64,000 nucleotides of DNA, taken from NCBI GenBank assembly GCA_947627615.1, contig CANQWS010000001.1, positions 1-64,000 on the forward strand, written 5' to 3'. This document shows, one piece after another, positions 390-10,006 of this stretch. The DNA comes from an uncultured Muribaculaceae bacterium (GTDB lineage Bacteria > Bacteroidota > Bacteroidia > Bacteroidales > Muribaculaceae). Position 1 is the first letter of the stretch. The number at the start of each line of letters is the position of its first letter. The translations under genes and the position numbers were made by a program. Below the pieces are notes generated by a model, which saw only the letters and a list, made by a program, of their open reading frames with translations, made no database searches and was not told the origin of the DNA.

Positions 390-1718
390 ATGAGCTACGC
401 AGTGTTACACATCATCAAGGCGAACTCGTCGCTGAACTCGATAGCCAAGCATATCGAGCGCACCGCCCATCCCGAAAACGCAGACCCGTCGAGGACGCAT
501 CTCAACCGCTACAATCTGGTAGAATATCCCGACGGGATAACCGGGCTTGCAGCGGCTGTCGAACACCGCATATCCAATGCCGGGATTACACGAAAAATCT
601 CCGACAGGCAGGTTCGGTGCCTCAACTTGGTTATGACCTCCGACAACGAGGGTATGCAGAAAATCATCGACAGCGGCAAGCTCGATGAATGGATTGCCGA
701 AAACATAAAATGGGCGCGCGACACATTCGGCGGCGACAATGTTGTCGGAGCCGCACTGCACATGGACGAGCGCACTCCGCATCTTCACATCGCCGTCGTT
801 CCGATAGTGACCGCCGAGAGAAAGAAGAAAGCGAGGGAGGCGACAGCAAAAAGGCGTTACCGCACCAAAGCCGCCAACCGTCCGAGGCTGTGCGCCGACG
901 ACATAATGGAGCGCGGAAAGATGAGCCGCTATCAGGACATCTATGCCGAGGCTATGGCGAAATACGGTCTGGAGCGTGGCATCCGTGGTTCCGAGGCGCG
1001 CCACATCGGACAGCACGAATATTACCGCGACTGCATGGTGAAGAAGAAAGGTCTTGAAGAAGACATCAGCAATCTCTCCATTGAGAAAAGGAAGCTCGAC
1101 AAAGAGAAAAGAACCCTTGAAAGCAAAGTCGAGCATCTTGAATGTAGTGCCATCGCTCTTGACAGCCGGAAGAAAATGCTCTCACAAGTAAACGAGCAAA
1201 TCAGGCAGCAGAACAGCGAACTCTTTTCCGAAAATTCCCGTTTGACCGAGGCTAATTCTTCTCTCGCCGCCGAAAACAAATCGCTTGTGGCAACATCTTC
1301 AAAACTGACAGATGATGTTGCCCGGCTCCAAATGCAAAAACTGAGCAGCGAGGCGGACGGAGATTTCAAGAAATTCAAGGCAGACATTGCCCGGTATTTC
1401 CCAGACCTTGAAGATTTGCTGAATTGGGGACGGTACTGCACCCATATCGGCTTCCCCGACAGCTTTACGCAGCGTATCCTTGCCCAAGAAAAGGTAGGAT
1501 TTGCCGGAGCGCTTTTCTCGTCGGAACACAATCAGACCTTTCGCACGGAAGGGTCGGTTGCCAAATTGGAAAGAGATCCGGAGAATAAGCACCGTTTCAT
1601 CTTGAATATTGACGGCGTGAGCGTATTCCAATGGTTCCGAGATATGGCTCGTAAGTTCCTTGAAAAACTCGGATTCAAACCTAAAGGGCCAACTCAATCC
1701 CACGGCATTAGACGCTGA
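390..1718 (+). CDS. MobV-family relaxase (Pre/Mob plasmid recombination enzyme)
   Basis: Predicted relaxase that nicks oriT and covalently leads single-stranded DNA into a recipient cell during mobilisation. The N-terminal half has the MobV signature: an asparagine/histidine-rich motif near residues 37-44 and the metal-binding motif HMDE (124-127) followed by PHLH (130-133). Residues about 220-330 form a long coiled coil, common in this family, and the C-terminus is a short unassigned domain. The 442-residue length is normal for MobV. Inverted repeats lie directly upstream and a terminator directly downstream. No integrase or replication gene is visible, so the rest of the element probably lies left of the window, or this is a remnant. 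The gene itself looks intact. Confidence 0.9.
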   Translation: MSYAVLHIIKANSSLNSIAKHIERTAHPENADPSRTHLNRYNLVEYPDGITGLAAAVEHRISNAGITRKISDRQVRCLNLVMTSDNEGMQKIIDSGKLDEWIAENIKWARDTFGGDNVVGAALHMDERTPHLHIAVVPIVTAERKKKAREATAKRRYRTKAANRPRLCADDIMERGKMSRYQDIYAEAMAKYGLERGIRGSEARHIGQHEYYRDCMVKKKGLEEDISNLSIEKRKLDKEKRTLESKVEHLECSAIALDSRKKMLSQVNEQIRQQNSELFSENSRLTEANSSLAAENKSLVATSSKLTDDVARLQMQKLSSEADGDFKKFKADIARYFPDLEDLLNWGRYCTHIGFPDSFTQRILAQEKVGFAGALFSSEHNQTFRTEGSVAKLERDPENKHRFILNIDGVSVFQWFRDMARKFLEKLGFKPKGPTQSHGIRR

Positions 1719-1826: not shown

Positions 1827-1834
1827 TAACTTTG
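1827..1834 (+). promoter_or_regulatory. Bacteroidetes -7 promoter box upstream of ECF sigma gene
   Basis: TAACTTTG fits the TANNTTTG consensus about 100 bases before the chosen sigma factor start at 1934. No good -33 box at the expected spacing was found. Confidence 0.45.
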
Positions 1835-1933
1835 CAGAGAGGAACAAAAAATCTAAAAAAAATATTCGCGTATATGAAACTTTCGGGGCTAAATCTGCAC
1901 CTAACGAGGCAAAGCAAACAAAACAAACGAAGT

Positions 1934-2425
1934 ATGACAGACCCACCAACTAACGAAAGGGATTTTGCCTCGCTCATAAAGCAGCACTCCCGAATTATCA
2001 ACAAGGTCAGCTATTTCTATGCTACCGATAAATTGCCGTTTGATGACCTCCGGCAAGAAATCTATGTCAATATCTGGCTTGGATTAAAACAGTTCCGAGG
2101 TGACAGCAAAATATCTACATGGATTTATCGGGTAGCAGTAAATTCGGCACTCATGGCCTTGCGTTCGTCAAAATCAAATATAGAAACCGTATCGGTTGAT
2201 TTTGGTCTACTCGACCTCTCTTCCGAGATTGACGATGCGCAAAAGGAGAATCTTCAAGTTCTGCACTCACTAATTAATAGACTTGAAGATATAGAGAAAG
2301 CTATAATACTCCTTTGGCTTGATGAGTATTCGTATGATGAAATAGCTGATACTCTAGGCCTTAAACGCAACACTGTTGCAGTTAAAATCCACCGTATTAA
2401 AGACAAACTCTCAAAACAGATGTAA
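1934..2425 (+). CDS. ECF-type RNA polymerase sigma factor
   Basis: Alternative sigma factor of the sigma-70/ECF class, expected to direct RNA polymerase to a small regulon. Region 2 covers roughly the first 80 residues (DLRQEIYVNIW, then STWIYRVAVNSAL), and region 4 forms the C-terminus with a helix-turn-helix around YDEIADTLGLKRNTVAVKIHR. I start at the ATG at 1934, giving 163 residues; a start at 1832 would add a lysine-rich, uncharacteristic extension that begins inside the promoter box. The next gene, a membrane protein, begins one base after this stop codon, so the two are almost certainly co-transcribed and the partner may control this sigma factor. The target regulon is unknown. Confidence 0.85.
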   Translation: MTDPPTNERDFASLIKQHSRIINKVSYFYATDKLPFDDLRQEIYVNIWLGLKQFRGDSKISTWIYRVAVNSALMALRSSKSNIETVSVDFGLLDLSSEIDDAQKENLQVLHSLINRLEDIEKAIILLWLDEYSYDEIADTLGLKRNTVAVKIHRIKDKLSKQM

Positions 2426-2426
2426 T

Positions 2427-2978
2427 ATGCAACTCAACGAACTTAAAAAAAGTATGTCAACGCTTGAGCAGGTGCTCGCAAAGACAAACTCTGACATCAA
2501 GATAGATGTGTCAACCTCCCAAACTGCCAAAACCAAGATACTCAAAAAAATCCGTCAAGGATTTGTATCCTGCATCATCCTCGCTATTGTTTTCACAGCA
2601 ATGGCACTCGGCAACATAGAGCCTCAATCCTTCCCCAACTATCTTAAAATCGGCATGGCAATTTGTCTTGCTGTTGGTGCGATGTGGTACATCTTTGTGT
2701 ACCTCCAACTAAACCGTATAGATGTGGCGGCTCTCTCTCCGGCCAATCTATTTTCCAAGACGGCAAACATAAAGCTGATGATGATTTCGGGAGAGGTGTT
2801 TTTCATTGTTTGCCTCGTCATCTTCTTTACACTCCTTTTCCAATCCTTTTGGAGTTATAACCAAACAGGTTTTTGGGCGATGGTTGCCACTATACTGTTT
2901 GCTATCGTTTACGGCATAGTCTATATGTGGCCGCAATACGTAAAACTATTCCGTGACCTCAATTCCATAAAGGAATAA
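2427..2978 (+). CDS. Four-helix membrane protein paired with the ECF sigma factor
   Basis: 183-residue protein of no recognised family. The first 45 residues are hydrophilic and probably cytoplasmic; four hydrophobic segments follow, starting with IILAIVFTAMAL and ending with ATILFAIVYGIVYMW. The start at 2427 is chosen because it follows the sigma factor stop by one base; an upstream ATG at 2376 would overlap the sigma gene. Translational coupling suggests it regulates the sigma factor, perhaps as a membrane anti-sigma factor holding it through the N-terminal tail. That role is inferred from position only, and no zinc-finger anti-sigma motif is visible. Confidence 0.7.
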   Translation: MQLNELKKSMSTLEQVLAKTNSDIKIDVSTSQTAKTKILKKIRQGFVSCIILAIVFTAMALGNIEPQSFPNYLKIGMAICLAVGAMWYIFVYLQLNRIDVAALSPANLFSKTANIKLMMISGEVFFIVCLVIFFTLLFQSFWSYNQTGFWAMVATILFAIVYGIVYMWPQYVKLFRDLNSIKE

Positions 2979-3249: not shown

Positions 3250-4596
3250 TCAGTTTATTATCCAGATTAGGAGGCTGAGGGCGAGCAGCACGCCGGCAAT
3301 GCGGTAGACTCGCCGCGCCAGCCGGCGGGACATATCCTCGTATTCCTTTATCTGCGAGGGGCTCATGAAGCCGTTGACTTCGTAGGCCTCGATTTTTCGG
3401 GCAAGGTCGGGGTAATCGTAGGTGGCGGTCCGGTAGGCCTCGGTGCGCCGCAGGATTTCATTGAAAATGGCCGCTCCGTTTCTTTTGGGCAAAACTGTGG
3501 GATTGCCGGATGAATCGAAGGCTATGACGCGGTTATCGCCGGGAAATGTCTGGGGAACGCGGAATCCTTTCCCGGAAATAAAACTGCTGAAGCCGGTCCA
3601 GCATGCTTTGAGGCGTTTGCGGGTGTCGAGGGGCGAGGTCCATTTCAGGAGAAGCGCCATCAGATTGCGCGAAAGGCCGTTGCCGGCACTTCCGTCAACA
3701 CACCATGCCAGTGTGCGGTAGCGGTTGGAGGGGATGTAGAAGAACACCTTGTCGGGATGCCGCCCGTAGATGCTCCGTATGCGTTCTATTTCCCAGCTCA
3801 GCCCCTCGGAATCGCCTTCGACAATGACGAGCGCGCGGCATGATTTCAGAAGCTCGTCAACAACGGTTTTCCAGTAATCGTCTTTCGACTGGATTTTAAG
3901 GCTTCCGCCGGTGGGGAGTATCTGGTCGGGGTCGGAGAGCGAGACTATGGGACACCGGTTGACGTCGATGTTGCCGCAGAGTTCTTCGTCGAAGGTCTTG
4001 TTGTTCCACCACGGATATTTGTCAAGTTCGAAAGAGCGCAACAGCACTATAGGCGGATTGTTGGACTCCAGCGACCGGAGCGAGCGCATGGCGGGCACCT
4101 TGATGCGGTCAAGCCTCGAAAGCTGCATGAAGATGAAGGCTATGCACATCAGGCAGAAAAACACAACGATACACATAATGGCCTTCACTTCCGACGGATC
4201 GGACCATCGCCAGGCCGAGTAGAGCACTACCGATTCCACAATCAGGGACGCGACGAGCCATGCGGATATTCCGAGGCCCAGAAGAGTGAAGTTCTCGTTG
4301 GATGGGAATTTCTTTATGGTCCTCAGATTCTGTTTTTTCAGCTTGAGATAGAGGGGTACAAGGATGATTCCGAGCAGGAGCATGCTTAATACCATGGCGG
4401 TGACCACATAGTCATCGGCGTCATGAAACAGTGGCAAGAGAGCGATTTTAATAAGAAAATCGCAGATTATGAAGGCCTTGCATATCCGGCATACCGCCCC
4501 CGGTGCCAGACATCCCTTGAACGACAGCGCTTTCTCGATGCCCATATAGGAGATTGCAGGCATCATCAGATAGATGGCAATGGCTAAGACGGGCAT
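3250..4596 (-). CDS. Polytopic membrane protein with TIR-like cytosolic domain
   Basis: 448 residues. The N-terminal half contains about five hydrophobic segments. A soluble domain of roughly 150 residues follows, opening with PPIVLLRSFELDK and including SLSDPDQILPTGGS, a DYWKTVVDELLKSCRALVIVEG stretch in shorter pieces, and GLSWEIERI. The last 20 residues are another membrane helix. The soluble part resembles a bacterial family with an LRSF-D strand, a GxP-like nucleotide-site loop, and a W-E helix reminiscent of TIR/SEFIR folds; this likeness is from memory and is not a family assignment. Last gene of the six-gene minus-strand cluster, starting 3 bases after its upstream neighbour, so translation is probably coupled. 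Likely role: membrane-bound effector or sensor working with the TIR and RyR proteins. Confidence 0.75.
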   Translation of the reverse strand: MPVLAIAIYLMMPAISYMGIEKALSFKGCLAPGAVCRICKAFIICDFLIKIALLPLFHDADDYVVTAMVLSMLLLGIILVPLYLKLKKQNLRTIKKFPSNENFTLLGLGISAWLVASLIVESVVLYSAWRWSDPSEVKAIMCIVVFFCLMCIAFIFMQLSRLDRIKVPAMRSLRSLESNNPPIVLLRSFELDKYPWWNNKTFDEELCGNIDVNRCPIVSLSDPDQILPTGGSLKIQSKDDYWKTVVDELLKSCRALVIVEGDSEGLSWEIERIRSIYGRHPDKVFFYIPSNRYRTLAWCVDGSAGNGLSRNLMALLLKWTSPLDTRKRLKACWTGFSSFISGKGFRVPQTFPGDNRVIAFDSSGNPTVLPKRNGAAIFNEILRRTEAYRTATYDYPDLARKIEAYEVNGFMSPSQIKEYEDMSRRLARRVYRIAGVLLALSLLIWIIN

Positions 4597-4599
4597 GGC

Positions 4600-4869
4600 T
4601 CAAACGTTCTTCCGGGCCTCTTTCGCGGCGAGTCTGTCGGACCATACGAGTTTGTAACGTCTTATTATCGCGTACATTACCAGCATGGCCAAGGTGCAGA
4701 TAATCATCTCGCCGGCATTCCCTACATCATCGAATATCAATATGAGAATCATGATTGTAGAGAATATGGCGAATATACGCTGAATACCGGCCAACGTGCC
4801 GCTGAGCATGGTGGCCAGCGGGCAGCCGGAATAGGATTTGTAGTGGTAGACCAGAGGGTTGAGGTTCAT
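4600..4869 (-). CDS. Small two-helix membrane protein
   Basis: 89-residue hypothetical protein with two predicted membrane helices (around RIFAIFSTIMILILIF and MIICTLAMLVMYAII) and a positively charged C-terminus, suggesting a cytoplasmic tail. I start at the ATG at 4869, because the longer reading from 4953 would overlap the upstream RyR gene and adds a basic, non-hydrophobic stretch. It lies between the RyR-only gene and the polytopic TIR-like gene, whose start is 3 bases downstream. No family recognised. It may be a subunit of a membrane complex with the 448-residue protein. Confidence 0.6.
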   Translation of the reverse strand: MNLNPLVYHYKSYSGCPLATMLSGTLAGIQRIFAIFSTIMILILIFDDVGNAGEMIICTLAMLVMYAIIRRYKLVWSDRLAAKEARKNV

Positions 4870-4933
4870 GGCGTGAGTGGGGGTGACAAATGATTGGCGC
4901 CGCCGCGTAACAGCGGTCAAGTGCAAATCTACG

Positions 4934-5224
4934 TTAAATTTTCGAGATTGCAAAGCCTGATTTCAAAATAAATTTCAGGGTTTCCTGCGATGTGGCGCGG
5001 TCATATTCCTTTTCGCTTTCAGTCAGTTGGTCGTAGGGCACAAGGCAGGGATGTTTCTTGGCGGCATCGTCGCGCACGGGGCCATAGGTCCATCCGTCGG
5101 TTATGCGGTTCTGCGCCCACACTTCATGCACATTTCTGGCCATCTCTTCGATAAGCGGTTTCAGTTCATCCGGCAGCTTCACGCTCTGAGTGTCCACCGG
5201 CTCGGGTCTGTATTCTTTTTTCAT
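4934..5224 (-). CDS. Stand-alone RyR domain protein
   Basis: 96 residues, nearly all one RyR domain, a fold first described as a repeat in eukaryotic ryanodine receptors and also found in bacteria. Signature segments are VHEVWAQNRI, DGWTYGPVRDD, LVPYDQLTESEKEYDR and the closing TLKFILKSGFAI. No signal peptide or membrane helix, so probably cytoplasmic. A second copy of the domain ends the protein encoded at 8451-9395, with the same WTYGPVRDD and ESEKEYDR motifs. Bacterial RyR domains have been proposed to bind nucleotide-derived ligands; if so, this could sense a product of the neighbouring TIR protein. Function here is inferred. Confidence 0.85.
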   Translation of the reverse strand: MKKEYRPEPVDTQSVKLPDELKPLIEEMARNVHEVWAQNRITDGWTYGPVRDDAAKKHPCLVPYDQLTESEKEYDRATSQETLKFILKSGFAISKI

Positions 5225-5270
5225 AATAATAGCGTTTACTGATAGAGATGCATCTAAAATTAAGAATCTA

Positions 5271-8200
5271 TCATCTGGCCTTTTTTATGGATGGAGTTTG
5301 TAGCGCTTTTTGAGCGTTTTTTATTGATGCATTATAAGACGGGAATGCATATTTTCTTATAGTCCCGTCAAACATAGCATAATAGATATAGCCGTTATCG
5401 CTTATCCGACCAAAATACGGAGGATTGTTGAATTTGTAAGATATTATTGGAGACAAATTTTTCGAATCCAATACCCAGCTTTGATAAATATCGCCATACA
5501 TAGTGCATAGTAACATGTTCTGACCGGAAGAATCAAATGAAATGTCATAAGTCCTCATCATACCCATATTAAAACGGTTAATCGGTTTGAGGTTCTTGTC
5601 ATACACTATAATTTCATTTTCTGCGGTCGCGCAGACAAGAGCGTTCTGATTCGGAATTTTTTTTACATAGGATATATCTTTAACCTCCGCGATTTTCTTA
5701 AAATGATTGTTCCTTATTTCCCATGTGGAGAGGTTGGCATCTGACAGGACTGCAAAGCAATTGTCGTCATTGATAAAAAATGCCCGCATAACGTCATTGT
5801 CGAATGATAGATCATTTCTTTTGTCCGGGTCGGCGAAGTCTGTAATCGTAACGGACTTGTTGTTCCAGTTTGCAGTGATAATCTTGTTATTATGCCCGAA
5901 ATTTGCCCGGGCGACATAGTTCCATGTGTTTGGTGACGCTAATAAATTGTATAGTAATTCCTTATCCTTATTCCATACTTTTGCCGTATTATCCATCGCG
6001 GATGTAAGTATCAAATCACCTCTTTTGGAAACTTCTATTGAAGAAATTGTGCTGGTATGTCCCTCCGGCCAGTGGGTTAATTTGTATGAAACAGGGTCAA
6101 TGGAGTGAATTTTCCCTTCGGAAGTGCCGATAATGAATGACTTGGTTTTCTCGTGCCATACAGCATGTTCAACAGGAGAGTTCAGTTTGAACTTTTTGAG
6201 AGTTTTGCCATTTAAATCAGAGAGAATTGCTGTGGAATCCTCACTTACAGTCAGGATTTTCCCAATGGATTCCGATATGGCCATATCATTTATTCTACCG
6301 GAGTGAACCGGAGTCCTCAATGCATTTTCAATACCGGTGTCCCATTGAATCAAGCGCCCTTTATCATCAGTGGTTATGATGCTACAGTCATTGCAAAGCA
6401 AATAACTATTTATGACATCAACATTAGTGTGAATTTTTGAAAGAAATTTTCCGCTTATGATACTCCACAAAGATATTAAGGAATTTGCCCTATCTGATGT
6501 AACGCATAAAAGCGCGTTGGAATTTACGCCTCTTATATTCAGCTTACGACCATCTGTTTTAAGTGAATTCTCGCCGAGGTCAATAGAAAACTGCAGCTCC
6601 TTTTCTCCCGAATCAAGGTTGTATTTTACTACTTCATTCCCATGTCTAACGCAAGTAAATACACTATTATCATAAAAAAATGGAGCATAAGTGTTTTTGA
6701 AGTTATAGACAGGTGTTGAAGATTCAAGATTAAGGATGTGGTGTCCGTTATTGTCCGAAAAAGAAAGCATCCGTCCGGTCGGATCAAAACACTGCATACT
6801 GATGAACTTTACGTCAGGGACTCCGTAACTGCCGAGCGTTTCGAGGCCCGAACTCATATCGTAGAACCGTATAATGAAAGAAGGCTCTGACGGACTTCCT
6901 TTGGTGGCTATGGCACATATCCCATCGGAGAAAGCTGATTGATAATAAGGCGCGCCGCTTTTCTCCCAGAGAATCCGGTTGTTCTTATAATCAATGCAAT
7001 ATATGTAATCAATATTATCACATAACGCAATGTGGTTGTTATCCACATATAGTAATTGAGATTTATTGACGCTTTTACGGGGAATCTGGTATCTATTCTG
7101 TTCTTCGGGGTCTATGACTATGATGCCATTATTATTTAACAATGCAATTTTATTATTATAATAGTTAACAATACAATCTTCAATGCCGGAGTATAGAAGA
7201 GATGTAGAGCCGTCAGACATCCGCAGGGAGTATAGATTTTTGTCGGTACCTATAAATAGTAAGTCTCCGGCTTTTGTATACATCAGCAGCTTGTCCGGCA
7301 TAACGTCTTCACCCGAAAAGTCAAAGCAGTTTCTCACAGATCCTTCCCCGTCAGAGGGTATTGTTAACCGATTTATTGCATAAATTATGTCTGAAATGTA
7401 CGGATTATCTTTATTATATGAATTCGTACATTTGTAAAGTGACTGCAGTATGTCGATATTGTCCGAGATGTCCTTATTGTTAATAGAAAGAGATGCCAAT
7501 AGTTTATAGGAATTAATTGTCTTTTCAATGGCTTCTTTCCTCACATTATCCCGTTCAATCATTATCTTTTTATTGGATTCGAGTAAAGCCTGATTCAAAT
7601 TTGTCAGACTATCCTTAGAGTTCCTTATTCTGATATTGTTGGCATAGATACTGTCGTAGGCGGCAACGAGTTCGTTCTTGGTAGTCTGGATGCTGTCTCG
7701 CTGTATTCTAATTGCATCATTCGCTTGCTCGAGCCTTATATTCTGGTTGGCAATGAAACCGGCCACTGCTAAAGATACGAGAATCAGGAGCGAGGCAACG
7801 GCCCCAATGAGCCATCGGTTCCTACGTTTGTCTTTTTCGTAGCGCTGCCAGAGGGTGTCGAAGCGGAGGTTGAACATGCGTGCCACCACTTTGATGGCTG
7901 CGGCGTCGCGCCCCATTTCGTTGATGTTGGCTCCAAGAAGTTCTTTTTCACCTGCAAGTTCCCGGAGGCCCTCAGGGAAGCATTCGTCTTTAGGATCTGA
8001 CGCATTGGGCGTGCCGCCTATTATGAACGGTATGATTTGATTCTCCCGTCCGCTGCTGATGAATGATTTGACTTCCTTGCTGACCCATACGGAATTTGCC
8101 GAACGCGGTGAGCATATCACAATAAGAAACTTCGATGAATCGAGTGCATCCTGAATTTTCTGTGCGAGAACTCCCGGTTCCAGGTCGGTCGTGTCCTTGA

Positions 8201-8357
8201 ATACGGGGCGTATTTTGTCGGGCAGCTCCGGATTATTCCTGCGAACAGATGTAGGCAGTTTATAGTATTCCAGTTTTCGCTGAAGCCATCTGGCCCATTT
8301 CTCATCCTCACGTTTGTAGCTGATGAAAGCGAAATACTCGTATCGGTTCGATTGCAT
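5271..8357 (-). CDS. TIR domain - transmembrane - beta-propeller (WD40-like) protein
   Basis: 1028 residues with clear modular order. Residues 5-165 are a TIR domain: FAFISYKRED at 9-18, a central VFKDTTDL loop, and SVWVSKEV at 89-96, where Glu95 sits at the catalytic glutamate position of TIR NADases. Residues 182-203 form one membrane helix. Residues 205-285 are a coiled coil. From about 320 to the end there are repeated beta-propeller blades of WD40 type (for example ISSIEVSKRGDLILTSAMD). The TIR part would be cytoplasmic and the propeller extracytoplasmic. Second-largest part of the cluster's logic: an envelope sensor coupled to a potentially NAD-consuming or scaffold TIR domain. The gene is AT-richer than its flanks, suggesting transfer. 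Confidence 0.9.
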   Translation of the reverse strand: MQSNRYEYFAFISYKREDEKWARWLQRKLEYYKLPTSVRRNNPELPDKIRPVFKDTTDLEPGVLAQKIQDALDSSKFLIVICSPRSANSVWVSKEVKSFISSGRENQIIPFIIGGTPNASDPKDECFPEGLRELAGEKELLGANINEMGRDAAAIKVVARMFNLRFDTLWQRYEKDKRRNRWLIGAVASLLILVSLAVAGFIANQNIRLEQANDAIRIQRDSIQTTKNELVAAYDSIYANNIRIRNSKDSLTNLNQALLESNKKIMIERDNVRKEAIEKTINSYKLLASLSINNKDISDNIDILQSLYKCTNSYNKDNPYISDIIYAINRLTIPSDGEGSVRNCFDFSGEDVMPDKLLMYTKAGDLLFIGTDKNLYSLRMSDGSTSLLYSGIEDCIVNYYNNKIALLNNNGIIVIDPEEQNRYQIPRKSVNKSQLLYVDNNHIALCDNIDYIYCIDYKNNRILWEKSGAPYYQSAFSDGICAIATKGSPSEPSFIIRFYDMSSGLETLGSYGVPDVKFISMQCFDPTGRMLSFSDNNGHHILNLESSTPVYNFKNTYAPFFYDNSVFTCVRHGNEVVKYNLDSGEKELQFSIDLGENSLKTDGRKLNIRGVNSNALLCVTSDRANSLISLWSIISGKFLSKIHTNVDVINSYLLCNDCSIITTDDKGRLIQWDTGIENALRTPVHSGRINDMAISESIGKILTVSEDSTAILSDLNGKTLKKFKLNSPVEHAVWHEKTKSFIIGTSEGKIHSIDPVSYKLTHWPEGHTSTISSIEVSKRGDLILTSAMDNTAKVWNKDKELLYNLLASPNTWNYVARANFGHNNKIITANWNNKSVTITDFADPDKRNDLSFDNDVMRAFFINDDNCFAVLSDANLSTWEIRNNHFKKIAEVKDISYVKKIPNQNALVCATAENEIIVYDKNLKPINRFNMGMMRTYDISFDSSGQNMLLCTMYGDIYQSWVLDSKNLSPIISYKFNNPPYFGRISDNGYIYYAMFDGTIRKYAFPSYNASIKNAQKALQTPSIKKAR

Positions 8358-8450
8358 GTCTGTTCTTGTCAGAGTAATTAAGTGATTCGATTTTCAACTT
8401 TACCGAAATATTGCCACTACGCACTGTCTGCTGCGTTTTAGACGCTGTTC

Positions 8451-9395
8451 TTAGTCGTTGAGGTTGGTGAGGGAGAAGCCGAGGCGGCGGACGAGGCGGA
8501 GAGTGTTCATGGCCATCAGGCGGTCATATTCTTTTTCGCTTTCCGGCAGGCGGGAGTAGGGCACAAGGTCGGGGTGCTGTTTGAGGCTGTCATCGCGCAC
8601 GGGGCCGTAGGTCCATCCCTCGTCCATGCGTGCGCGGGCCCAAATGTCGTGTGCGTTCTCGGCTATGGCTTCTGTCAGGTCCATCAGATCGGCGTCGAGG
8701 TCAATGTCTTCAACCGAGATGGGCTGCGGGTCATATCCGTCGGATTCCGCCGAAACCGTCACCATGTAGTTGCCGCTGCATTTCCATGCGTCGAGGAAAT
8801 CCCGTATTTCTATGCTTTCCTCTTCCAAAGTGTCAAGGTCAAGATAGTCAACGGATTCATCGTCAATGCCGGTCAGGTATATGGCGTGGTGGGCCGGAGA
8901 GTGTTCATCCGGTTCCTTGTCATTTAGAATGGAGCCGTCAATCACCGCCATGATTTCAAGGCCATTGCCGAGTGCGGTTTCAATGTCGCGGACCGATGCG
9001 TCATAGCGGCGGTCTACGTGCATCCCTTTCAGCTCGAGAAGGCGTCCAACGTGGTGGAGCGGCGTCCCTTCCTCGCGGAGCCAGTTGTTAGCCTTGGCGG
9101 TCTCGAGAAGTGACCAGCGGTCCATGTCCATGTCGTGACGCTGCATGATGAATGTCTCGCAGTCAAATGAGCAGAGGTTCTCGGGATTTGCCGCGGCGAG
9201 GGCGTGCATCGGTATTATCCGGCATTCCTGTTCCTTCAGGTCATGGTCCACAGCCGAAGATACCGACAGTATTTCCGCCACTTCGCCGTCGGCCGACATG
9301 GCCGAAATGATTTCTGCCATTTCCTGTCCGCTGACATTGCCGTCAAGGAAAGCGGCTATGTCTTCGTCGGTGATGTTCCTTCTGTTATTGTCCAT
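8451..9395 (-). CDS. Anti-sigma-like N-terminus + C39-like papain fold + RyR domain
   Basis: 314 residues in three modules. Residues 8-50 resemble the N-terminal module of anti-sigma factors (DEDIAAFLDGNVSGQEMAEI) without zinc ligands. Residues 70-215 look like a C39-type papain-fold domain: candidate Cys75 or Cys79 in NLCSFDCE, His169/His170 in HHAIYLTGID, and Asp187. Residues 225-312 are a RyR domain (DEGWTYGPVRDD, LPESEKEYDR). The start overlaps the upstream ECF sigma gene by 11 bases, so the two products are translated together. A plausible role is ligand- or protease-controlled regulation of that sigma factor; activity of the papain-like domain is not established. Confidence 0.8.
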   Translation of the reverse strand: MDNNRRNITDEDIAAFLDGNVSGQEMAEIISAMSADGEVAEILSVSSAVDHDLKEQECRIIPMHALAAANPENLCSFDCETFIMQRHDMDMDRWSLLETAKANNWLREEGTPLHHVGRLLELKGMHVDRRYDASVRDIETALGNGLEIMAVIDGSILNDKEPDEHSPAHHAIYLTGIDDESVDYLDLDTLEEESIEIRDFLDAWKCSGNYMVTVSAESDGYDPQPISVEDIDLDADLMDLTEAIAENAHDIWARARMDEGWTYGPVRDDSLKQHPDLVPYSRLPESEKEYDRLMAMNTLRLVRRLGFSLTNLND

Positions 9396-9942
9396 TGTGG
9401 TAATATTTTATGGCAATGTGCATGAAGGTGGCCATTGCACGTCGTTTTATATTGTAGAGATTGCCCACGGTGACGCCTGTTTCGGCGGCGTAGCGTTCAG
9501 GCTCTTCGTCATTGAGCACGAGATGGCGAATGGCGTCGGCATAGCGCCGGTTCTCCATCATGCCGAGCATCAGCTCTATGTCTATGCGCCGGGCTATCAG
9601 CGCAGATGTGTCGGACAGTCCTTCGGTCTCCGTCTGTTCATAAAGAGGTTCTCCGGCACGGTCTTCTATCATGGAATCGCGATGGCGGATGAAGAACCGG
9701 ATGGCCACTATCTTAAGCCACTGGCAGACTGTGCTGCGGTATTCGAACTGGCGGAGCCTGGCCGCGTCGTCGGCCATGATATGGGCATAGAGTTCGTTGA
9801 CAAGCTCGTCATAGTTGACCGGATAGCTGAACACGTTTCTTATGATTGCGGTCAGGAGCGGTCGGCATTTGACAAAGAAAAACTGTTCCGTGACGCGGTT
9901 GTCACGGTCAATCAGTCCTTTTATGATTTCCCTGTCGGTCAT
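9385..9942 (-). CDS. ECF-type sigma factor heading the TIR/RyR cluster
   Basis: 185-residue sigma-70-like factor. Region 2 runs through RNVFSYPVNYDELVNELYAH and TVCQWLKIVAIRFFIRH; region 4 is YAAETGVTVGNLYNIKRRAM near the C-terminus. First gene of the six-gene minus-strand cluster and overlapping the C39/RyR gene by 11 bases. A -7 promoter box lies about 57 bases upstream. It probably activates its own cluster in response to whatever the downstream RyR, C39 or TIR proteins sense; autoregulation is inferred. Confidence 0.85.
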   Translation of the reverse strand: MTDREIIKGLIDRDNRVTEQFFFVKCRPLLTAIIRNVFSYPVNYDELVNELYAHIMADDAARLRQFEYRSTVCQWLKIVAIRFFIRHRDSMIEDRAGEPLYEQTETEGLSDTSALIARRIDIELMLGMMENRRYADAIRHLVLNDEEPERYAAETGVTVGNLYNIKRRAMATFMHIAIKYYHNGQ

Positions 9943-9998: not shown

Positions 9999-10006
9999 CA
10001 AAGTTA
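9999..10006 (-). promoter_or_regulatory. -7 promoter box of the sigma/TIR/RyR cluster
   Basis: Minus-strand TAACTTTG fits TANNTTTG and would give a leader of about 50 bases before the sigma factor start at 9942. No -33 box at ideal spacing. The rest of 9943-10266 holds only this and the opposite promoter. Confidence 0.5.

Follow-up and report, generated by a model that had tools for sequence, protein, structure and literature searches.

A divergent sigma factor tightly linked to a partner with anti-sigma-like, C39-fold and ryanodine receptor domains in Muribaculaceae: a possible signal-gated switch

The window analysed here comprises bases 1-64000 of contig 1 (CANQWS010000001.1) in the 3.36 Mb, 118-contig assembly GCA_947627615.1 of an uncultured Muribaculaceae bacterium. 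It contains a cluster of six genes, the first two of which encode a divergent sigma factor, here called SIG, and a 314-residue partner combining an anti-sigma-like segment, a C39/papain fold and a ryanodine receptor (RyR) domain. These two genes form a rare, tightly linked pair, whose linkage and domain make-up we consider practically beyond doubt, and the operon beyond them is a variable cassette. We propose, with a probability of about one half for the whole chain of events, that the pair acts as a signal-gated sigma switch, in which a nucleotide signal made by a TIR domain would be read by the RyR domain and SIG would be freed by either proteolysis or release.

The linked gene pair

Six minus-strand open reading frames (ORFs) are present within positions 3250-9942, spaced exactly as the initial annotation described: an 11-base overlap, then gaps of 93, 46, 64 and 3 bases. 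The first two are as follows.

9385..9942, minus strand: SIG, divergent sigma factor of predicted extracytoplasmic function (ECF) type, 185 amino acids; sigma2-like region 1-91, sigma4-like region 108-185
8451..9395, minus strand: fused partner, 314 amino acids; anti-sigma-like segment 1-58, C39/papain fold 70-219, RyR domain 221-314; overlaps SIG by 11 bases

Of 297 genomes of the family, 60 matched the partner; 13 matches span the C39 domain and extend into the RyR domain, and the remainder cover parts only, mostly RyR. A SIG profile search over the same 297 genomes placed SIG next to the partner in 13 of 13 cases. A scan of named genomes with the partner yielded 39 loci, not all full-length. 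Named and genome loci together comprise 39 distinct loci encoding a protein with N-terminal segment, C39 and RyR domains, and SIG lies beside it on the same strand in every one, the two genes mostly overlapping. This count corresponds to 42 of 43 rows, four of which are genome copies of named loci, with contigs of equal length; in the one row without a called SIG (L054 in our locus numbering) the gene was found by tblastn. The presence of SIG was not selected for, since the loci were collected using the partner as query. At the level of the order, a search with E up to 1e-45 found the full partner in six of 393 genomes, two of which also belong to the family set, with SIG adjacent in all six. 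The association of SIG and partner thus exceeds chance. Records bearing the pair are titled Muribaculaceae, Prevotella, Paludibacteraceae, Rikenellaceae, Bacteroidaceae and others, and one is titled Clostridiales.

The sigma factor

The initial annotation assigned SIG to the ECF sigma factors, a claim that the predicted fold bears out and that the sequence models leave below their cut-offs. In the predicted model a short linker connects sigma2 and sigma4 folds, no further domain is present, and both halves match ECF sigma factors on structure comparison. By sequence SIG is a weak case: TIGR02937 scores 21.6 bits against a cut-off of 42.9, Sigma70_r2 and Sigma70_r4 were each matched in one of 27 SIG family members, Pfam gave nothing above cut-off and a PDB profile search gave no match. 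As modelled, SIG folds like an ECF sigma factor, if a divergent one. A match to PhiKZ_gp91 (E 1.4e-5; 25.5 bits, under the cut-off of 27; one of 27 members) was set aside. Elsewhere in the window's own genome there is a second, partial SIG match (contig C94:5595-5753, query residues 2-54).

In several loci (e.g. L035, L042, L051 and L076) SIG begins where an upstream membrane-protein gene ends, or only a few bases away, for which reason a common SIG promoter was not sought further. Bacteroidetes promoters differ from the E. coli type, and a scan with an E. coli-type consensus (22 sites compared to a mean of 11.5 in shuffles, standard deviation 3.4), was therefore given no weight. The Bacteroidetes -7 element is TAnnTTTG; at 9999-10006 on the minus strand, 56 bases ahead of the SIG start, the sequence TAACTTTG fits it by eye.

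The N-terminal segment of the partner

The initial annotation described the partner as a papain-like protein with an RyR domain. Both domains stand, and an N-terminal segment of around 50 residues (1-58), which had been overlooked, probably plays an anti-sigma role, as its distribution suggests. This was assessed in 20 regions around SIG relatives that lie away from fused RyR proteins; SIG was called in 19 of them (missed in L124) and is followed by a same-strand gene in 18, some of the loci being near copies (L126 and L129). A segment profile built solely from fused, RyR-type partners picked out ten of the 18 followers, at E values down to 8e-17, and nothing else among 226 ORFs, a set that includes the SIG genes and followers themselves. 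After one round of refinement on those ten, it matched 15 of 18 followers (weakest domain E 0.003) and, again, nothing else in the set. Those it matched are for the most part small acidic proteins, 88-180 amino acids long and devoid of RyR. The sole follower to bear RyR, in L128, is a membrane protein ending in an RyR domain and lacks the segment. Since followers of distant SIG genes bear the segment without RyR, the segment evidently travels with SIG. Conversely, no SIG directly precedes those C39-RyR proteins that lack the segment (L042, L044, L045 and L063). The shorter of these (216-219 amino acids; L042:11149, L044:3563 and L045:1000) lie in loci that also hold the fused partner.

The fused partner looks as if joined from parts, as the segment and the C39 domain are separate genes elsewhere. 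In L138, for example, SIG is followed by an anti-sigma-like gene (165 amino acids) and a separate C39 protein (259 amino acids). Overall a separate C39 gene occurs within the retrieved region of 4 of 19 distant SIG loci: it is third in order in L138 and L142, and lies one gene off in L143 and about 9 kb off in L141.

Two further followers deserve mention. At L143:4950-7148 (minus strand), directly behind a distant SIG relative, an anti-sigma-like N-terminus is, by eye, fused to a dynamin-like GTPase. At L133:4524-6312 (plus strand) a distant SIG relative precedes a caspase-like protein (SGHG and DACHSGD motifs by eye) with an internal signal-peptide-like start.

In a PDB profile search, MucA (RseA-type) anti-sigma chains match the segment profile in the corresponding stretch, weakly (E 0.039 and 0.05) and behind calmodulins. 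The latter (from E 0.005) were dismissed as chance hits, the stretch being short and acidic.

The C39/papain-fold domain

Pfam did not recognise this domain; the predicted model and its structural matches support a C39/papain fold, in agreement with the papain-like domain proposed initially. C75 and H170 are invariant in 41 of 41 sequences, and by eye position 186 is D, N or E. From the end points of the structural alignments, assuming no gap between them, C75 aligns with position 17 of ComA and position 21 of PCAT1, which we take to be their catalytic cysteines. Also among the structural matches is a chain titled 'a C39-like domain' (3zua), presumably a degenerate, inactive example.

The RyR domains

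The two RyR domains of the initial annotation, fused and free, are certain: PF02026 matches the partner at 106.8 bits (E 6.7e-31) and the free RyR protein, encoded by the fourth gene, at 130.9 bits (E 2e-38), where the gathering cut-off is 27.4. Phage RyR-domain proteins have been found to bind 2'/3'cADPR, a cyclic ADP-ribose, and one of them cleaves it (PMC13232231, as for the following details). In this phage enzyme, RyDEP, the catalytic dyad consists of H75 and D117; the adenine is held in place by W78 and the phosphates are coordinated by H100. The spacing of H75/W78/H100/D117 (0, 3, 25 and 42) recurs in H249/W252/H274/D291 of the fused domain and H33/W36/H58/D75 of the free one, a mapping made by spacing to the published numbers rather than by alignment with the RyDEP sequence. 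Across loci the four positions are kept in 43, 43, 27 and 43 of 43 fused domains and in 35, 35, 31 and 35 of 36 free ones; in the RyR ends of large membrane proteins, considered below, the figures are 25, 26, 26 and 21 of 26. From these residues it is likely that the RyR domains bind an ADP-ribose-type nucleotide. The ligand may vary between loci, because H274 is substituted in 16 of the 43 fused domains.

The free RyR gene occurs in 18 of the 39 pair loci. With an E-value limit of 0.01, 265 phage records match the free RyR of the window. Viral carriage was considered for the fused gene and rejected: among the matches listed there are nine viral contigs, all matching the RyR part only. In these (L115-L123) an RyR gene was called in eight, and profiles found no SIG, anti-sigma segment, C39, TIR or MEM (the membrane protein encoded by the last gene of the cluster). 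Such RyR-only contigs are in line with phage counter-defence. Similarly, two human-gut 'phage' records with a free RyR 63 and 58% identical to ours contain no TIR, SIG, anti-sigma segment, C39 or MEM by profile. Plasmid carriage of the fused gene was likewise rejected, five plasmids giving matches, none over more than 80% of the query.

The variable cassette

The remaining genes of the cluster are as follows.

5271..8357, minus strand: TIR domain (1-140), single transmembrane segment (about 184-202), linker and WD40 propeller, 1028 amino acids (Pfam, hydropathy)
4934..5224, minus strand: free RyR domain protein, 96 amino acids (PF02026, E as above)
4600..4869, minus strand: small membrane protein, 89 amino acids from an internal ATG; hydrophobic stretches at about 28-50 and 51-69 (hydropathy)
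3250..4596, minus strand: MEM, polytopic membrane protein, 448 amino acids; around six hydrophobic segments, soluble domain about 170-330

The initial annotation proposed a search for conservation of the six-gene order; that order is absent from every other locus examined, the first two genes alone being constant.

The TIR domain of the 1028-residue protein is certain (TIR_2 E 6.8e-14 and ThsB_TIR E 2.5e-8, both over cut-off), as are its WD40 families. All 17 close TIRs that were aligned share glutamate E95; they were drawn from 28 profile matches after leaving out two copies, six from genome loci and three weak matches. Hydropathy places six K/R residues before the transmembrane segment and one after it so that, by the positive-inside rule, we infer a cytoplasmic TIR and an external propeller.

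Of 92 genes downstream of the pair that encode at least 120 amino acids, 26 carry TIR_2, compared to at most one of 92 control ORFs (the 25 families listed for the controls, which take in all those with at least two members, do not include it). The 92 downstream genes come from 33 named loci, some of which nearly duplicate one another (L046 and L049), and genes that merely flank the system may be among them; the control ORFs were a fixed-seed draw from those of at least 120 amino acids in 20 control regions, taken at arbitrarily chosen places on the same contigs as the genome loci. By a narrower measure, 14 of 39 named loci and 7 of 20 genome loci contain a close-family TIR gene, compared to none of the 20 control regions, the named loci having no matched controls except through the four genome loci that are their copies. 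TIR and RyR genes also adjoin where the pair is lacking (L084, L086, L087 and L090). That the TIR of the cluster's own operon makes the signal is slightly favoured. One other TIR_2 gene is present in the window's own genome (contig C69:4236-4592).

Further families of the kind found in conflict systems among the same 92 genes are nSTAND1 (5), TPR_10 (6) and SIR2_2 (4); PrsW (6), M48 (6) and LRR_5 (3) are perhaps merely flanking. L036 holds a Fic protein.

For the smaller of the two membrane proteins in the cluster, Pfam, NCBIfam and PADLOC gave no match above cut-off; its longest ORF begins with TTG at 4953, upstream of the internal ATG. For MEM, Pfam gave nothing above cut-off and a PDB profile search nothing convincing. 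The TIR-like domain initially ascribed to MEM received no Pfam match and, in profile-profile comparison (hhalign), a probability of 2.6% (E 0.018, 44 columns); the assignment is not upheld. MEM is found in three of the 297 family genomes including that of the window, always within a SIG or RyR locus; three named pair loci have it too. W268-E269 is kept in six of six aligned sequences.

A different membrane protein, of 660-970 amino acids and with a divergent RyR domain as its C-terminus, is encoded in 16 of the 39 pair loci, not beside the pair of the window, and also in RyR loci without the pair (L084-L087, L090, L091 and L093). Examples are L035:6017-8461, L034:6068-8443 and L086:15953-18337, loci which also hold TIR and free RyR genes; in several loci the gene lies directly upstream of SIG. 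PF02026 is matched at E up to 0.05 in 11 of 19 of these proteins, and their profile matches 3nrt with an E value of 9e-8. A GFGEVG-type (Rossmann-type) motif occurs mid-protein in 10 of 19, RCK and TrkA-N models match one of 19 each (E 0.021 and 0.012), and the profile weakly matches pore-side regions of TRPV6 and TPC2 (E 0.005-0.02). An ion channel, possibly gated by RyR, is a plausible reading of these proteins. In the window's genome the profile finds matches to the RyR end only, one of them being the free RyR of the cluster.

Proposed mechanism and its alternatives

In the switch that we propose, the N-terminal segment of the partner would at rest bind SIG and keep it inactive. A stress or phage event would possibly be sensed by the extracytoplasmic propeller, as the topology suggests, and the TIR domain, with its conserved glutamate, would use NAD+ to make a signal of the cyclic ADP-ribose type. 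This signal would be bound by the partner's RyR domain through the counterparts of the residues shown to bind 2'/3'cADPR in phage RyDEP. Ligand binding would then activate the C39 cysteine protease, which would cut or displace the anti-sigma segment, a step suggested by the invariant Cys and His and by relatives in which segment and C39 are separate genes near SIG. The freed SIG would alter transcription. The free RyR would most likely limit the response by binding or hydrolysing the signal, and the membrane proteins are probable effectors. Proteolysis triggered by the ligand we place somewhat below even odds. An anti-phage purpose, judged only from the company of TIR, nSTAND and similar genes, is evenly balanced.

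The idea that a TIR signal is read by RyR and answered by a sigma factor was already in the initial annotation. It is strengthened by the cADPR-binding RyR proteins described in PMC13232231, by the matching residues and by the clustering of TIR with RyR; the six-gene set as such is not conserved. Phage defence, the propeller as sensor and the membrane proteins as effectors are roles that we infer.

Several observations weigh against the proposed switch. The parts, their conservation and their linkage are observed, and the activity of every part is predicted. Close-family TIR genes are present in just 16 of 39 pair loci, some of the loci being short. H274, the predicted phosphate contact, is replaced in 16 of 43 fused domains. 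The N-terminal segment has low confidence in the predicted model, calmodulins lead its PDB matches, the MucA matches are not significant and the anti-sigma assignment comes from linkage and pattern. Three of the 18 distant followers (L128, L131 and L133) lack the segment by profile, and some matches are partial (13 residues in L143). PADLOC matches well only the TIR part of the 1028-residue protein (SAVED_TIR, E 2.7e-8) and recognises no known defence system. No target promoter of SIG was found, the regions upstream of SIG having been viewed only and the search for a common promoter not carried further.

Among the alternatives the best survivor, which we nonetheless find unlikely, is that the pair is a self-contained regulator sensing some different metabolite of the adenine or ADP-ribose kind, and that its neighbours (TIR, RyR and membrane genes) are independent defence genes of a variable island. 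The variation in downstream genes between loci fits such an arrangement, as does the GC content of the TIR-propeller gene (0.41 vs 0.50-0.56 in the other five), below that of its neighbours and hence as if it had been swapped into the cluster; according to their titles, moreover, structures of human RyR3 Repeat12 contain ATP, ADP or AMP-PCP. Independence of the downstream genes is hard to reconcile, however, with the abundance of TIR_2 after the pair relative to controls, with a free RyR gene in nearly half of the pair loci, and with the adjoining of TIR and RyR genes even where the pair is missing.

A little less likely still is an allosteric switch, in which the C39 domain is a pseudo-peptidase and the RyR ligand reshapes the partner so that the segment releases SIG uncut. 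C39 peptidases carry an oxyanion Gln six residues before the catalytic Cys. The corresponding residue 69 of the partner is A, and in 3 of 41 sequences C79 is replaced by S or A, so that the domain could be a pseudo-peptidase, a state for which 3zua, presumably inactive, would be a precedent. The protease reading is better served by the strong C39 fold, by the complete conservation of C75 and H170 with an acidic or amide residue at 186, and by the separate C39 gene in 4 of 19 distant SIG loci.

Least probable is that the RyR proteins are antidotes that bind or cleave the TIR product to protect the cell, the sigma pair merely tuning expression of the cassette: phage RyDEP does degrade 2'/3'cADPR and two relatives sequester it, and the free RyR keeps the dyad H and D in 35 of 36 cases each, but an antidote leaves unexplained why RyR is fused to a likely anti-sigma/C39 protein or ends a large membrane protein, and in PMC13232231 six of eight tested RyDEP homologs bound signals and none of these besides DyoEdafos RyDEP cleaved them.

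Relation to known systems and neighbouring genes

The proposed switch resembles the Calp system, in which a messenger of type III CRISPR activates the protease CalpL, which cuts an anti-sigma factor and frees sigma (PMC12751052). In both, the order of events would run from messenger sensor to protease, anti-sigma cleavage and release of sigma (CalpL/CalpT/CalpS; proposed for the pair described here). Unlike Calp, sensor, protease fold and anti-sigma-like segment are here in one chain, with RyR replacing SAVED, C39 replacing Lon and TIR as the likely signal maker. Searches of the six genes with Pfam, NCBIfam and PADLOC gave no SAVED, Lon or Cas match except to the TIR part of the SAVED_TIR model, and among ten window proteins scanned with the same libraries there was no convincing CRISPR match. 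Since sensor, protease and likely signal maker all differ, the cluster would work like Calp yet is not a member.

A TIR domain that matches ThsB_TIR, with a conserved glutamate and beside a member of a 2'/3'cADPR-binding domain family (PMC13232231), recalls Thoeris. The likely signal reader here is, in contrast, an RyR domain fused to a probable sigma regulator, and Pfam, NCBIfam and PADLOC gave no ThsA-type effector match among the six genes; an effector of undescribed type, such as MEM, is possible. With the phage RyDEP and RyR-domain sponges the cluster shares PF02026 and equal spacing of the ligand residues (PMC13232231), yet it is bacterial, forms an operon and has one RyR fused to C39 and an anti-sigma-like segment. 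Like ECF sigma/RseA-type pairs it has a sigma fold and an overlapping partner with a short, putatively helical N-terminal segment. It differs from them in the divergence of the sigma factor and in a partner which lacks a recognised zinc motif or membrane anchor and bears a protease fold and a nucleotide-sensor-type domain. Finally, the Bacteroides thetaiotaomicron 'putative ryanodine receptor' (3nrt and 6uag) has an RyR domain 52-56% identical to the fused one, but was solved as a stand-alone chain.

Two features of the window adjoin the cluster. At 390-1718 (plus strand), near the contig end, there is a MobV-family relaxase (NF041497, E 3.3e-57), which hints at a mobilisable element. At 1832-2978 (plus strand) a canonical ECF sigma factor with strong Sigma70 r2 and r4 matches overlaps a 200-residue ORF, membrane-bound by eye; both genes have a GC content of 0.40-0.42 and perhaps constitute a second sigma/anti-sigma pair.

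Significance

A literature search, with most subscription journals outside its scope, returned no paper on such a cluster. If the proposal is correct, bacterial TIR signalling would drive transcription through a compact sensor-protease-anti-sigma chain, a new route from an immune-type alarm to gene expression; in the literature found, such logic was met only for CRISPR cyclic oligoadenylates (Calp; PMC12751052). It would also give bacterial RyR domains a role in the host, where the sole study found concerns phage counter-defence (PMC13232231).

A broader and doubtful extension is that Bacteroidales RyR domains serve as general readers of a cyclic ADP-ribose signal made by TIR, three outputs being encoded side by side. 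These would be the anti-sigma/protease/sensor chain that frees sigma, the possible RyR-ended channel and the free RyR that clears the signal, a division as tentative as the extension itself. Gating of the cADPR type has long been discussed for animal ryanodine receptors and is an open question in calcium signalling. The general-reader view, if true, would place such gating in bacterial immunity, and the switch itself, if real, would offer small, tractable proteins for asking whether RyR Repeat12 domains respond to cyclic ADP-ribose.

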